The notes below the pieces were generated by a model. That model did not search any database. It saw nothing but the letters and a program-made list of their open reading frames with translations, and was not told the DNA's origin. From Salinivibrio kushneri (lineage in GTDB: Bacteria > Pseudomonadota > Gammaproteobacteria > Enterobacterales > Vibrionaceae), in assembly GCF_027286325.1 (NCBI RefSeq), contig NZ_CP114588.1, positions 1,823,317 to 1,887,316 of the forward strand: a stretch of 64,000 bases of DNA. The letters run 5' to 3'. How positions within the stretch are numbered: the first letter of the stretch is position 1; each line of letters opens with the position of its first letter. Position numbers and translations under genes: made by a program. Below are positions 19,001 through 25,079 of the stretch, piece by piece.

Positions 19001-19744
<744 letters not shown>

Positions 19745-19771: not shown

Positions 19772-20743
19772 ATGTTTGATTTTTCCGATTTTTATCAGCT
19801 GATTGCTAAAAACCGCCTGAGTCATTGGCTCGAGGTGTTGCCAGCGCAATTAGCTGACTGGCAAAACCAGCCCCATGGCGATATGCCTAAGTGGATAAAA
19901 GTGCTGCACAAGATCCCAACCACCGCGCCCGAGACGGTTGAACTGAAAGACGCGGTGCGTATTGGTGATGACGGTAGCTTGCCTGATGGCGAGCGCAAAA
20001 AATTAGAAAACTTATTGCGCACCTTGCACCCTTGGCGTAAAGGCCCGTACCAGGTACACGGCATTGATATTGATACCGAATGGCGCTCAGATTGGAAGTG
20101 GGATCGCGTACTCCCGCATATCTCGCCGCTAAAAGGGCGGTATGTGCTTGATGTCGGTTGCGGCAATGGCTACCACATGTGGCGCATGTTGGGCGAAGAA
20201 GCCGCACTGACAGTGGGCATTGACCCGTCCGAGCTCTTTTTGATGCAATTCGATGCCATTCGTCGCTTGATGGGCAACGATCAGCGTGCGCACCTGTTAC
20301 CTTTAGGGATTGAAAAACTGCCAGCGCTGCGCGCATTCGACACCGTGTTCAGCATGGGTGTGTTGTATCACCGCCGCTCTCCTCTCGATCATCTGATGCA
20401 ACTCAAAGATCAGTTGCGTAAAGATGGCGAGCTGGTGCTGGAAACCTTGGTAATCGATGGTGATGAAAACGCGGTGTTGGTGCCAACCAGTCGCTATGCA
20501 CAAATGCGCAACGTCTACTTTTTCCCGTCCGCGCGTGCGTTAAAAGTTTGGCTAGAAAAAGTAGGATTTGTCGATGTGCATATTGTCGACGAGTGCGTCA
20601 CCACCACGGATGAGCAGCGCAGTACCGAATGGATGACCCATAACTCGCTGCCTGAGTACCTCAACCCAGATGACCCCGCGCAAACCATCGAAGGGTATCC
20701 GGCCCCTAAACGCGCTATCTTAGTGGCTCGTAACCCAGACTAA
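19772..20743 (+). CDS. cmoB: tRNA U34 carboxymethyltransferase
   Basis: CmoB transfers the carboxymethyl group of carboxy-SAM to 5-hydroxyuridine at tRNA position 34. The 323 residues match E. coli CmoB (323). SAM-binding motif I is [15 protein letters not shown] and the family block [13 protein letters not shown] is present. It is the second gene of the cmoAB operon. Confidence 0.97.
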
Positions 20744-21085
20744 CTTGCTGGGTCTGAAAACAACACCACCGCCAGTCATCCTCCGATTGGCGGCGGGGTT
20801 GAAGTATCTTTACCTGGCACCCACCCCGCCCTGACGTTACGCTCGCAATCGCGATGCTTGTATTGAGCGCTGCGTTTTATTTCACCGCTTGAGTGCTTGT
20901 TTGCTAACGGCTTTGCTTTATTACCGTCGATTAAATCAGCATTTAGTCAATTCTGACTAACATTTGACAGAGTCCCCCTACCCATCTTTGTCGCATCCTT
21001 TAGAATTTGCTCTCGCCGTCGCCATCAGGGCGCTACTGCCTGTGACATGGCTAGCCGCAATCCTTCTTATGCTGTGGAGATTTAG
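20744..21085. other. Intergenic region between cmoB and the lipoprotein gene
   Basis: About 340 bases without a gene. A nine-base stem (CCGCCAGTC, 20769-20777, with GATTGGCGG, 20785-20793) lies past cmoB and may mark its 3' end, although there is no U-tract on the plus strand. A TTGACA at about 20965 could be part of the promoter of the next gene, but no convincing -10 box sits at the right spacing. Confidence 0.4.
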
Positions 21086-21874
21086 ATGCTATTTCGTTGC
21101 TCACTGATCAGTGCGCTTTTACTTACGGTGTCCGGCTGCACATTGACCTCGCAGCACCAACATCAAGAAACGCTCAACAAATTTGATAACCTGGCAGCCC
21201 AAAGCCAGCAACAACAGCAAGCGCTCACCGAGACCTTCACTCAGCATGGCACAGCACTCAACCAGTTGTCTGATAAAGTCACGGCACTTGAGAGCCAGCT
21301 GTCGGTCATCCAACGCACGCAGGCCAAACTGTACGCTAACGTGGCAACCGACACCGCTGATGTAAAGGTGAAAGAAAAAGTGGTGAGAGTCCCGGTTAAC
21401 GACGGCAAGGTTATTCTCGGTGGACGCGAGTTTGTCTGGTTTGATGCGGTCGAAAACACCTTTCAATCCCGTGTTGACACCGGTGCCGAAACCTCTTCAC
21501 TCAATGCGGTTGATATCCAAGAGTTTGAGCGTGATGGCGACACCTGGGTCAAATTCAACGTCAACCATAGCGAAAACAATGATCAGCCAGTGATCATGGA
21601 AATGCCGGTGAAACGCTGGGTGCGCATCCGTCAGTCATCGAGCGATAGCACCGAGCGTCGCCCGGTGGTAGAAGCCTGGATCCGCGTCGGTAACATCCAT
21701 GAAAAAACCGAATTCACCCTAGCCGATCGCACCAACATGGAATACCCAGTGCTGCTCGGCCGCGAATTTTTTAAAGACTTGGCGGTGGTTGATGTCAGCC
21801 AAGTGCACATTCACCCGCAATATCAGCCGGACACGCCAACGGAACCAGGCGATGACGACGCCCCCAACAAATAG
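21086..21874 (+). CDS. Lipoprotein with RimB-like (PF05618) protease domain
   Basis: A 262-residue exported lipoprotein. Residues 1-18 form a lipoprotein signal with VSGC, Cys18 being the lipid site. Residues 24-82 are a Gln-rich coiled coil. The C-terminal domain (about 108-242) is the family annotated as 'ATP-dependent zinc protease' or RimB-like. It shows DTGAETS (131-137), the active-site pattern of retropepsin-type aspartic proteases, and the closing block LLGREF (223-228). I see no zinc or ATP motif. Ten bases separate it from the 7TM gene, and a ligase follows. The context suggests the protease acts on a peptide or modified product handled by those two. Confidence 0.82.
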   Translation: MLFRCSLISALLLTVSGCTLTSQHQHQETLNKFDNLAAQSQQQQQALTETFTQHGTALNQLSDKVTALESQLSVIQRTQAKLYANVATDTADVKVKEKVVRVPVNDGKVILGGREFVWFDAVENTFQSRVDTGAETSSLNAVDIQEFERDGDTWVKFNVNHSENNDQPVIMEMPVKRWVRIRQSSSDSTERRPVVEAWIRVGNIHEKTEFTLADRTNMEYPVLLGREFFKDLAVVDVSQVHIHPQYQPDTPTEPGDDDAPNK

Positions 21875-21883
21875 GTAATCGAT

Positions 21884-23452
21884 ATGGTTTCACGGGTTCC
21901 TTTTTATTTTTTGATTGGCTTTTTGGTCGTGGCTGGCATCGCACTCAGTGCCTACCGTCATTTTGTCTATGGCGTGCCATGGCTGGCGGATGAAACGCGC
22001 CAAGTGTGGCAAATCGAGGCAAGAATCAATTTTGATGCCACCAACGGGCCGGTCAAAGTCAGTTTGGCTGCACCAGATAGCCAACCCGGTCTGACACTGA
22101 TTGATGAAAGCACCTCATCAGCAGGCTACGGGTTTTCTTTACTCGATACAGAGCATGGCCGCCAAGGACAGTGGTCGGCACGCCATGCCAGTGGTGAACA
22201 AACCCTTTATTTTAAAAACCAGATGCTGGTCGATGACAGCGCGCGCTACACCATGACCCCTCCAGAGGATCAGGTGGTGGCGACCCCTGTCATGGATAAT
22301 GCGGCTAAAAATGCCGCACTCGCGCTGCTTGACCGTGCTCGTGCTCGCTCTGCCGATAACATTACCCTGACCCGCGAGTTGATCAAGCAGCTTAATAGCC
22401 CTGATAGTCAAAACGCGGCCCTGCTGCTCAATACGCTGGATAAACCCGACGCCTTGCGCAAAACCCTGGCCCTTGAAGATATTCACGCGCGCGTGGTAGG
22501 CGGTTTAGAGCTTGAGGATGGCCGGCGCCGGCAAAGCATTTCTCCCATGCTGCAAGTATGGCAAGACAGCCGCTGGCACTTGTTTGACTTGGTGAGCGGC
22601 CAAAATGGCCATCACGATAACATCTTGCTTTGGAACCAACATGGTGGGCCCCTGTTAGAAGTGATCGGTGGCGAGCATAGTCAGGTGCACTTTTCTATTA
22701 TCTCGCAAGATATCAGTCCGCAACAGGCAACGTCCGCCAAAGTCTCCGCTGACGATTTGCTCAACTTCTCGATTCATAGCTTACCCATCGAAGAGCAGGC
22801 GATGTTCAAAACCATCATGCTGATCCCGATTGGTGCGCTCATCGTGGTGTTCTTGCGAGTGATTGTGGGGCTCAAAACCTCTGGCACCTTTATGCCAGTG
22901 CTCATTGCGGTTGCCTTTGTCCAGACCCAGCTCATTACCGGTATTGTTGGTTTTGTGCTGATTGTTGGCACGGGGCTGGTGATCAGAAGCTACTTATCCC
23001 GACTCAATTTACTCTTGGTAGCACGAATATCGGCAGTGATTATCACCGTTATTCTGATTATTTCCGTCTTTAGCGTGATTGCCTTCCATATTGGTTTAAT
23101 GGAAGGACTCACCATTACCTTCTTCCCGATGATCATTTTGTCGTGGACCATCGAGCGAATGTCGATTTTGTGGGAAGAAGAAGGGGCAAAGGAAGTGGTC
23201 ATTCAAGGCGGTGGCTCACTGCTGACTGCGGTGTTGGTGTATTTAGCGATGACCAATGATCTGATTCGCCATCTCACCTTTAATTTTATTGGCCTGCAGT
23301 TGGTGATCCTCGCCCTAATCTTGCTTCTGGGTAATTACACGGGCTATCGCTTGTCGGAGCTCAAGCGCTTTCGTCCCTTAGCAGAGCCAAGTGACAAACC
23401 GCTCGGGTTGGCACCAACGTCGGGAGGGGATGATGCGCGCACTTCTCGATAA
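21884..23452 (+). CDS. Inactive transglutaminase fused to 7TM domain
   Basis: A 522-residue membrane protein. One N-terminal membrane helix (about 6-24) is followed by a periplasmic region of some 270 residues corresponding to the inactive transglutaminase-like domain. A C-terminal domain of about seven helices (from about 305 to 500) contains GLKTSGTFMPVLIAVAFVQ and SRLNLLLVARISAVIITV. The architecture is what is called 'inactive transglutaminase fused to 7 transmembrane domains'. It overlaps the ligase gene by about 20 bases and follows the lipoprotein protease by ten, so the three form one translationally tight unit. Its biochemical role is unknown. Confidence 0.82.
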   Translation: MVSRVPFYFLIGFLVVAGIALSAYRHFVYGVPWLADETRQVWQIEARINFDATNGPVKVSLAAPDSQPGLTLIDESTSSAGYGFSLLDTEHGRQGQWSARHASGEQTLYFKNQMLVDDSARYTMTPPEDQVVATPVMDNAAKNAALALLDRARARSADNITLTRELIKQLNSPDSQNAALLLNTLDKPDALRKTLALEDIHARVVGGLELEDGRRRQSISPMLQVWQDSRWHLFDLVSGQNGHHDNILLWNQHGGPLLEVIGGEHSQVHFSIISQDISPQQATSAKVSADDLLNFSIHSLPIEEQAMFKTIMLIPIGALIVVFLRVIVGLKTSGTFMPVLIAVAFVQTQLITGIVGFVLIVGTGLVIRSYLSRLNLLLVARISAVIITVILIISVFSVIAFHIGLMEGLTITFFPMIILSWTIERMSILWEEEGAKEVVIQGGGSLLTAVLVYLAMTNDLIRHLTFNFIGLQLVILALILLLGNYTGYRLSELKRFRPLAEPSDKPLGLAPTSGGDDARTSR

Positions 23453-24440
23453 ATTAGCCTCCCCGTTTCGGCTCAACCAAGCGGGGATCATGGGCATGAA
23501 CCAACGCAACATACGCTATATCGGTCGTTACAATGACCGGCGTTTGTACCCGCTGGTTGATGACAAACTACAAACCAAACTCATCGCCCAACAAGCCGGT
23601 GCCACGGTGCCTGAGCTGATTGGCGTGATTGACAGCCAAGCAGATGTCAAACGCATCCACGCTATGGTCGCCAACTGGCCTGGTTTTGTGATTAAGCCTG
23701 CACAGGGCTCTGGCGGAAAAGGCATCTTAGTCGTGACAAAAAACCACCAAGGTGTCTATACCAAAGCTTCGGGGAAAGCGGTCAGCCATAATGATGTGGA
23801 GCGCCATATCACCAATACCTTGGCAGGCCTGTTTTCGCTCGGAGGTAAAGCCGATGTGGCGGTGGTCGAAAACTTGATTGCGTTTGATGATAGTTTTCAA
23901 GGCTTCAGTTACGAGGGCGTGCCCGACATTCGGGTGATTGTCTTTCAAGGTTATCCCGTGATGGCGATGATGCGCTTATCGACATCGGCGTCTGATGGCA
24001 AAGCTAACTTACACCAAGGTGCCGTCGGTGTTGGCTTAGACATTGCTACAGGTAAAGCATTGAAAGCGGTGCAGTTTAATCGCCCTATTACCCACCACCC
24101 CGATACTCACCAAGATCTCTATACCCTGAAAGTGCCTCACTGGCAGCAGCTGCTTACCCTCGCCGCCAGCGCGTGGGAGATGACAGACTTGGGTTATATG
24201 GGTACCGATATGGTTTTGGATAAAGAAAAAGGTCCGATGGTGTTGGAGCTCAATGCCCGCCCAGGCCTCGCCATTCAAATCGCTAACGGCTGTGGCCTAT
24301 TGCCTCGCCTTGATCTGATTGAATCACTGCCGCCTTGTCGCTACCCACCTCTACCGGAAGACCGGGTGGCGTTTTCAATGCAACATTTTGCTGGCCAAAG
24401 CACGCGCTCCTTGCAGCCTCGGCTCGCCCAAGCAGGCTAA
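23433..24440 (+). CDS. ATP-grasp ligase (alpha-L-glutamate ligase-like)
   Basis: A 335-residue ATP-grasp enzyme that would form amide or peptide bonds with ATP. ATP-binding strand and loop are seen in GFVIKPAQGSGGKGILVV, and the metal-binding strand is MVLELNARPGLAIQIANGCG. It is related to RimK-type glutamate ligases but belongs to the sub-family that travels with the 7TM protein. Two ATGs are adjacent; the second (23433) is preferred because GGAGG stands five bases away, against two for the first. A longer frame exists upstream inside the 7TM gene. The substrate is unknown. Confidence 0.82.
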   Translation: MRALLDKLASPFRLNQAGIMGMNQRNIRYIGRYNDRRLYPLVDDKLQTKLIAQQAGATVPELIGVIDSQADVKRIHAMVANWPGFVIKPAQGSGGKGILVVTKNHQGVYTKASGKAVSHNDVERHITNTLAGLFSLGGKADVAVVENLIAFDDSFQGFSYEGVPDIRVIVFQGYPVMAMMRLSTSASDGKANLHQGAVGVGLDIATGKALKAVQFNRPITHHPDTHQDLYTLKVPHWQQLLTLAASAWEMTDLGYMGTDMVLDKEKGPMVLELNARPGLAIQIANGCGLLPRLDLIESLPPCRYPPLPEDRVAFSMQHFAGQSTRSLQPRLAQAG

Positions 24441-24517: not shown

Positions 24518-24560
24518 TACCCTAGTTATCACTATTATCGACCACGTCATAACTAGGGTA
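24518..24560. repeat. Perfect 12-base inverted repeat at a gene start
   Basis: TACCCTAGTTAT (24518-24529) and ATAACTAGGGTA (24549-24560) are exact inverted copies separated by 19 bases. The right arm contains AGGG, the only ribosome-site-like sequence before the GTG start at 24567. It could be a two-site operator or, as RNA, a stem that hides the ribosome site. Confidence 0.85.
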
Positions 24561-24566
24561 ACCACA

Positions 24567-25079
24567 GTGACAGTTCATACCATCGACAAAGCGCAGCTAA
24601 TTAGCGACGTTCAGTTTGGGGACAACCTAAACCATGCGGTGGTACAAGGCCGTCGTTCCGACTTTGCCCTGATGGTGGCCTTACTGTCGGGTGATGCCAA
24701 CGAGTCAACCCCGCTGACTCCCGTCGATAAGCCAGTCAGCAATGACCAGGTGCTCCGCCAGCAGTTCCAGCTGGCTGAGCCGCAACCTTTGGCCGCGAGC
24801 AATGAGCAAGACTATTTGCGTGCCGGCGCACAAGCCGATGCCTTTCACCGCGGCGGACTGGCAAGTGCTAACCTCCGCTTCCAGCTCGCCCCCGCGGCAA
24901 TGCACTACCCTCCTCAAGGCACACATGGGTTTGATGAGGCGGTCTATCATAATTTATCAGGCCACGAGCGCCGTCATTTAGCGGATACAGAGCCCAAGCG
25001 CCCTGCTTACAACCCGGCCACTTTGTACGAAAAGCTCACCACCTCGCATTGCTTCGATAAAATGCGTGTGAGCGCATAA
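24567..25079 (+). CDS. Hypothetical protein (Vibrionaceae-type, unknown)
   Basis: A 170-residue soluble protein with no signal peptide, membrane helix or recognised domain. It is rich in Gln, Ala and His, with blocks such as LRQQFQLAEPQPL, YLRAGAQADAFH and FDEAVYHNLSGHERRHL. It would start at a GTG seven bases past a perfect inverted repeat, with AGGG of the repeat as ribosome site. It follows the ligase gene by 126 bases in the same direction, but a functional link is not shown. Base composition is like its neighbours. Confidence 0.6.
   Translation: MTVHTIDKAQLISDVQFGDNLNHAVVQGRRSDFALMVALLSGDANESTPLTPVDKPVSNDQVLRQQFQLAEPQPLAASNEQDYLRAGAQADAFHRGGLASANLRFQLAPAAMHYPPQGTHGFDEAVYHNLSGHERRHLADTEPKRPAYNPATLYEKLTTSHCFDKMRVSA

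Follow-up and report, generated by a model that had tools for sequence, protein, structure and literature searches.

The three genes at 21086-24440 of the window (the whole stretch of Salinivibrio kushneri DNA that was analysed, 64,000 nucleotides long) form an rloABC operon, the orthologue of the Pseudomonas aeruginosa rlo operon (PA14_41690, PA14_41710, and PA14_41730; mBio 2025, PMC12239564). The system, which protects the cell envelope, was given its name recently, and the window operon is a further example of it. Both operons encode the same three families, namely an exported DTG retropepsin, an inactive transglutaminase-7TM protein, and an ATP-grasp ligase, and key poly-Glu contact residues of the protease are conserved in window RloA. 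However, window RloA is a lipoprotein, carries a long spacer, and lacks the disulfide cysteines; the genome encodes one secreted RloA where P. aeruginosa has three paralogues; and the window proteins score below the strict NCBI cut-offs for the Pseudomonas proteins. We infer a joint explanation for the operon, towards which we lean slightly, in which RloC would carry out synthesis, RloB passage or presentation, and RloA cutting.

Table 1 Features of the rlo locus, in window coordinates
Feature	Position	Strand	Description
Methyltransferase gene, upstream of the operon	19016-19744
Second upstream methyltransferase gene	19772-20743		PF08003
Candidate VxrB box CTGACTAACATTTGAC	20953..20968	+	Weak; 11/14 positions of TTGACAAAANNTTGAC (motif from PMC7695739)
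rloA	21086..21874	+	262 aa lipoprotein, retropepsin-like aspartic protease, catalytic Asp131; PF05618, DTGAETS, conserved poly-Glu contact residues
rloB	21884..23452	+	522 aa, inactive transglutaminase domain fused to 7TM; PF14400, PF14402, triad lost, model matches 3isr
rloC	23433..24440	+	335 aa from ATG 23433, predicted cytosolic RimK-related ATP-grasp ligase; TIGR02291, PF14397, catalytic motifs intact
VC2046-family gene, downstream of the operon	starts at 24567

The genes are packed as the sequence-only reading had described, with three open reading frames (21086-21874, 21884-23452, and 23391-24440) in the order and on the strand that it gave. A gap of 9 bases separates rloA from rloB, and the overlap of about 20 bases claimed for the ATP-grasp gene holds for a start at ATG 23433, which gives exactly 20 bases and is preceded by GGGAGG at 23422-23427; the alternative GTG start at 23391 would lengthen the overlap to 62 bases. 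With this spacing and a shared strand, rloC is predicted to belong to the same operon as rloA and rloB. Scans for sigma-70 promoters and intrinsic terminators returned nothing beyond the level of shuffled sequence. For V. cholerae, the authors of the P. aeruginosa study report that rloABC is one of the loci whose upregulation through VxrB is strongest (PMC12239564). The candidate VxrB box of the window reaches p ~0.04 against shuffles, and relatives of the same family outscore other families in a comparison that ignores base composition and relatedness. Just 5' of the VC2046-family gene, 24518-24560 holds an inverted repeat with perfect 12-base arms (TACCCTAGTTAT / ATAACTAGGGTA) around a 19-base loop; since no T-run follows the repeat, it is perhaps an operator or a 5' hairpin.

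The co-occurrence of the genes strongly supports one functional unit. RloB was found in 129 of 248 genomes of the order, and RloC accompanied it in every one of them, scoring over its cut-off in 122 and fused to RloB in a single protein in the remaining 7, all from Kangiella. It is this co-occurrence, together with fusion in one clade, that argues for a unit. In the first comparison set, rloA, rloB, and rloC were all present and in the same order in 53/53 unfused loci, so the arrangement is not due to chance. That the three genes are mere neighbours without a shared function is extremely improbable: all that speaks for it is that PF05618 and ATP-grasp families also occur apart from each other elsewhere, whereas the kept order, the complete co-occurrence, and the published epistasis all oppose it, and in Pseudomonas it is refuted by suppression genetics.

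RloA matches PF05618 (E 1.8e-42, Pfam profile search) and consists of a lipobox (LLTVSGC, Cys18), some 88 residues of Gln-rich spacer, and the protease domain, where DTGAETS begins at Asp131. This bears out the earlier description of a lipoprotein with a retropepsin-like site, and also the remark that the family is often labelled a zinc protease despite having no zinc motif; Pfam does give PF05618 that name. We rejected the label, since HExxH is absent from the 262 residues of RloA and the solved relatives (9g58 and 9g59) are aspartic proteases (PMC12239564). In P. aeruginosa, secreted RloA cleaves stretches of at least eight consecutive Glu in vitro, D48, R114, and R137 are needed, and the poly-Glu-binding residues are required in vivo (PMC12239564). 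Alignment with 9g58 places the poly-Glu contacts K46, R92, R114, and R137 at Arg129, Arg177, Arg192, and Arg215 of window RloA, the K46 column thus being occupied by Arg, and D48, R114, and R137 are invariant in 35/35 aligned rows and present in the window protein. Window RloA has cysteines only at positions 5 and 18, carries Arg200 in the C122 column, and contains no disulfide-forming pair; as the disulfide-column Cys occurs in 13 of the 35 rows, the pair is not general in the wider family. The best NCBIfam RloA score, for RloA3, is 100.9 against a cut-off of 210, which marks the protein as a relative lying below the curated cut-offs of RloA1, RloA2, and RloA3. The genome (two contigs, 3.46 Mb) holds only two PF05618 genes, rloA and, next to RimK on the second contig, a gene for a 149-aa RimB, which leaves one secreted RloA paralogue.

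RloB matches PF14400 (4.8e-54) and PF14402 (1e-109) in the Pfam profile search, and Cys and His are absent at the catalytic columns of its transglutaminase region. Its AlphaFold model, built with 70 sequences and homologues of 20-27% identity, has a pLDDT of 80, with residues 120-250 modelled weakly. An N-terminal helix (4-29) is followed by a periplasmic part with a beta/transglutaminase fold, and residues from about 302 to 500 form a helical membrane domain. These features agree with the predicted inactive transglutaminase-like periplasmic domain followed by about seven helices. In a PDB fold search the model matches 3isr, a putative cysteine protease (E 2.6e-7). The 7TM part of the model found no PDB fold in the structure search, so transport by RloB is a guess; searched by sequence against the PDB, RloB gave chance capsid matches only. 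With an NCBIfam RloB score of 336.6 against a cut-off of 900, it is a relative of the named protein rather than that protein itself.

The third gene was correctly recognised as an ATP-grasp ligase. RloC matches PF14397 (1e-100, Pfam profile search), a family named 'sugar-transfer associated' ATP-grasp, and TIGR02291, an alpha-L-glutamate ligase-like family (504.5 bits, cut-off 314). Lys88, Arg167, Asp259, Glu272, and Asn274 are in place at the motif positions, with the roles usual for these residues in the ATP-grasp fold. Among solved folds, the ligase comes closest to the poly-alpha-glutamate synthetase RimK and to ArgX/LysX. Judged by alignment, RloC keeps the predicted catalytic core of RimK, with 24% identity over the core to the RimK of the same genome, and aligns only from residue 99 onward, so that the RimK N-terminal domain is missing. 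In RimK, the poly-Glu chain is held mostly by S7, R8, S14, R64, and S68 of that domain, together with R189 and N262 (PMC10092738). Equivalents of the last two are kept in RloC as Arg167 and Asn274. Since RloC lacks the domain that makes most of these contacts, its substrate may differ from that of RimK; RloB may also supply the missing part of the poly-Glu site. No RloC product is reported in the rlo literature that we found. The RimABK ribosome-modification system likewise pairs a ligase with a counteracting protease, and RimB is a cytosolic relative of RloA (33% identity within the window's genome). However, RimB has no signal peptide where RloA has a lipobox, RimABK includes no counterpart of RloB, and rimB-rimK forms a separate locus on the second contig.

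The importance of rlo lies in what it controls in P. aeruginosa: survival at low osmolarity, biofilm formation, and tolerance of beta-lactams. A mutant without all three RloA paralogues dies at low osmolarity and is also defective in biofilm, cell shape, and beta-lactam tolerance, and deletion of rloB or rloC in this triple mutant rescues growth fully and the other defects partly (PMC12239564). PA1766-PA1768 were among the suppressor insertions in another P. aeruginosa study (PMC7314104), and the inactive transglutaminase-7TM gene of Shewanella vesiculosa affects vesicle production (PMC12096838). The sequence-only reading knew of no settled function for the unit, which remains true of the substrate, the RloC product, and the role of RloB, but no longer of the phenotype, given the published hypo-osmotic tolerance, biofilm, beta-lactam tolerance, and shape defects. 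With a single secreted RloA in the window's genome, one deletion should suffice there.

Four kinds of 7TM locus were distinguished: (A) retropepsin, dead transglutaminase-7TM, and RloC, the type of the window; (B) transglutaminase-7TM with intact Cys-His-Asp and an adjacent or fused ligase, without retropepsin and often followed by TPR and outer-membrane-barrel-like proteins; (C) dead transglutaminase-7TM, usually with retropepsin, and without RloC; and (D) 7TM without transglutaminase, with an RloC-like ligase. In four loci, gene neighbourhood links the 7TM family with enzymes of poly-glutamate: rimK or rimK-rimB adjoins the dead-transglutaminase 7TM gene (type C; L146, L157, and L158) or rimB-rimK adjoins 7TM-RloC (type D; L167). 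Among 121 loci, in all 19 aligned ones with an intact triad, the ligase was present and the retropepsin absent, whereas 89 of the 92 loci with a dead transglutaminase and a ligase had a retropepsin in the examined stretch. One exception (L179, genome G357) has a dead-transglutaminase RloB and RloC with no retropepsin nearby, and its sole genomic retropepsin is RimB-like and lies beside rimK. Window RloB, which lacks the triad and has the retropepsin beside it, falls on the tree outside the active-transglutaminase clade, which holds the Kangiella fusions.

A scan of GTDB species genomes returned 231 type-B loci, and the best 80 of these include records from Kangiella, Aliikangiella, Henriciella, Hyphomonas, Aquimarina, Ghiorsea, and Nitrospirota. 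No retropepsin lay within flanks of up to 6 kb in any of the best 80, and the 7TM protein and ligase were fused in 47 of them. Because the catalytic Cys is part of one of the two search patterns, intactness was partly selected, while retropepsin absence was not; for His and Asp, the 80 loci were screened with loose text patterns only. Among 12 type-B genomes outside Kangiella, PF05618 is absent altogether from 7 and lies beside RimK only in two (G417 and G693); two others (G527 and G278) carry a dead-transglutaminase locus too, and in G338 the type is unclear. The model of the fused Kangiella spongicola protein (pLDDT 86.5) matches 3isr (E 2e-14, TM-score 0.73 by target), and RimK is the first match of its ligase part.

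Since the retropepsin is missing where the triad is intact (0/19 and 0/80) and present where the transglutaminase is dead (89/92), it may have replaced a lost transglutaminase-type peptidase, a pattern that is suggestive only. The phylogenetic test finds one change on the tree and one independent pair, and we therefore claim no significance for it; with a single triad change and an arbitrary midpoint root, the replacement can also be read in the other direction. The comparative pattern predicts that RloB and RloC act as one enzyme and that an intact transglutaminase domain cuts the substrates of RloA, and it points to organisms with the fused protein as a place to seek the product.

In the joint explanation that we slightly favour, RloC, bound to RloB on the cytosolic side, would spend ATP on making or lengthening a glutamate-rich peptide or adduct, which the 7TM domain would pass or present to the periplasm and the dead transglutaminase domain would bind without cutting. 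RloA, as a lipoprotein dimer on a long spacer, would cut the product and limit its amount or length. Uncut product would damage the envelope, which would explain why Pseudomonas lacking RloA is rescued when RloB or RloC is removed as well. Where relatives have an intact transglutaminase, the membrane protein itself would also cut, and no retropepsin would be kept beside it. The layout proposed from sequence, with synthesis inside, a membrane step, and cleavage outside, agrees with the Pseudomonas genetics and biochemistry and with the solved folds (RimK and the putative cysteine protease), its substrate and transport step being putative.

The missing chain-binding domain of RloC also fits a reading in which RloC and RloB do not make poly-glutamate but modify an envelope precursor (peptidoglycan, lipid, or another polymer) by attaching amino acids, and RloA removes these, poly-Glu being a mimic of the substrate in vitro. 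The published beta-lactam sensitivity and shape phenotypes, which point to the cell wall, the 'sugar-transfer' name of the RloC family, and the TPR and outer-membrane-barrel genes of related loci fit such a role; the in vivo need for the poly-Glu-binding residues of RloA, which the window protein conserves, and RimK as the nearest solved fold argue against it, and we regard it as unlikely. The epistasis of rloB and rloC deletions to rloA loss would be expected of a signalling chain as well, in which RloB acts as a sensor rather than a conduit and controls the modification of a cytosolic target by RloC, with RloA processing either RloB or a different envelope protein. The periplasmic part of RloB does resemble a ligand domain. 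Yet sensing does not need the direct 7TM-ligase fusion that so many of the best type-B loci display, and it leaves the loss of retropepsin alongside an intact transglutaminase unexplained, which makes a sensor role distinctly improbable.

Beyond the joint explanation, it is possible, if doubtful, that rlo is a derived, periplasm-only form of a wider system. An amide-linked, probably glutamyl, product made in the cytosol would go through the RloB 7TM domain and be cut or transferred by a transglutaminase-type cysteine enzyme, and in the full form of the system, TPR and outer-membrane-barrel partners would receive the product at the surface. In rlo, the cysteine enzyme would have lost its activity, and a secreted RimB-related retropepsin would act instead. 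The active-transglutaminase loci of Kangiella, Henriciella, Aquimarina, Ghiorsea, and others (L205-L284) resemble rlo in their homologous 7TM and ATP-grasp parts, adjacent or fused, but differ in their intact catalytic residues, the lack of a retropepsin within 6 kb, and the TPR and barrel-like genes often found downstream. Clusters of circularly permuted ATP-grasp, alpha-E, and transglutaminase-like proteins (PMC3597751) also combine an ATP-grasp ligase with a transglutaminase-type enzyme and are predicted to synthesise or modify peptides; unlike rlo, they use another ATP-grasp family and have no 7TM protein.

The active-transglutaminase locus is widespread (L205-L284, L053-L059, L145, L147-L152, and L162-L166), its transglutaminase, 7TM, and ATP-grasp parts often forming one protein of about 810 aa, and it looks like a synthesis and export system. 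The barrel family had no match in the PDB, and its Pfam matches are weak and scattered. Downstream of the locus there are often a TPR protein that has a single membrane anchor and the barrel-like outer-membrane protein. Two further loci (L070 and L071) carry a tandem pair of retropepsin genes upstream of rloB.
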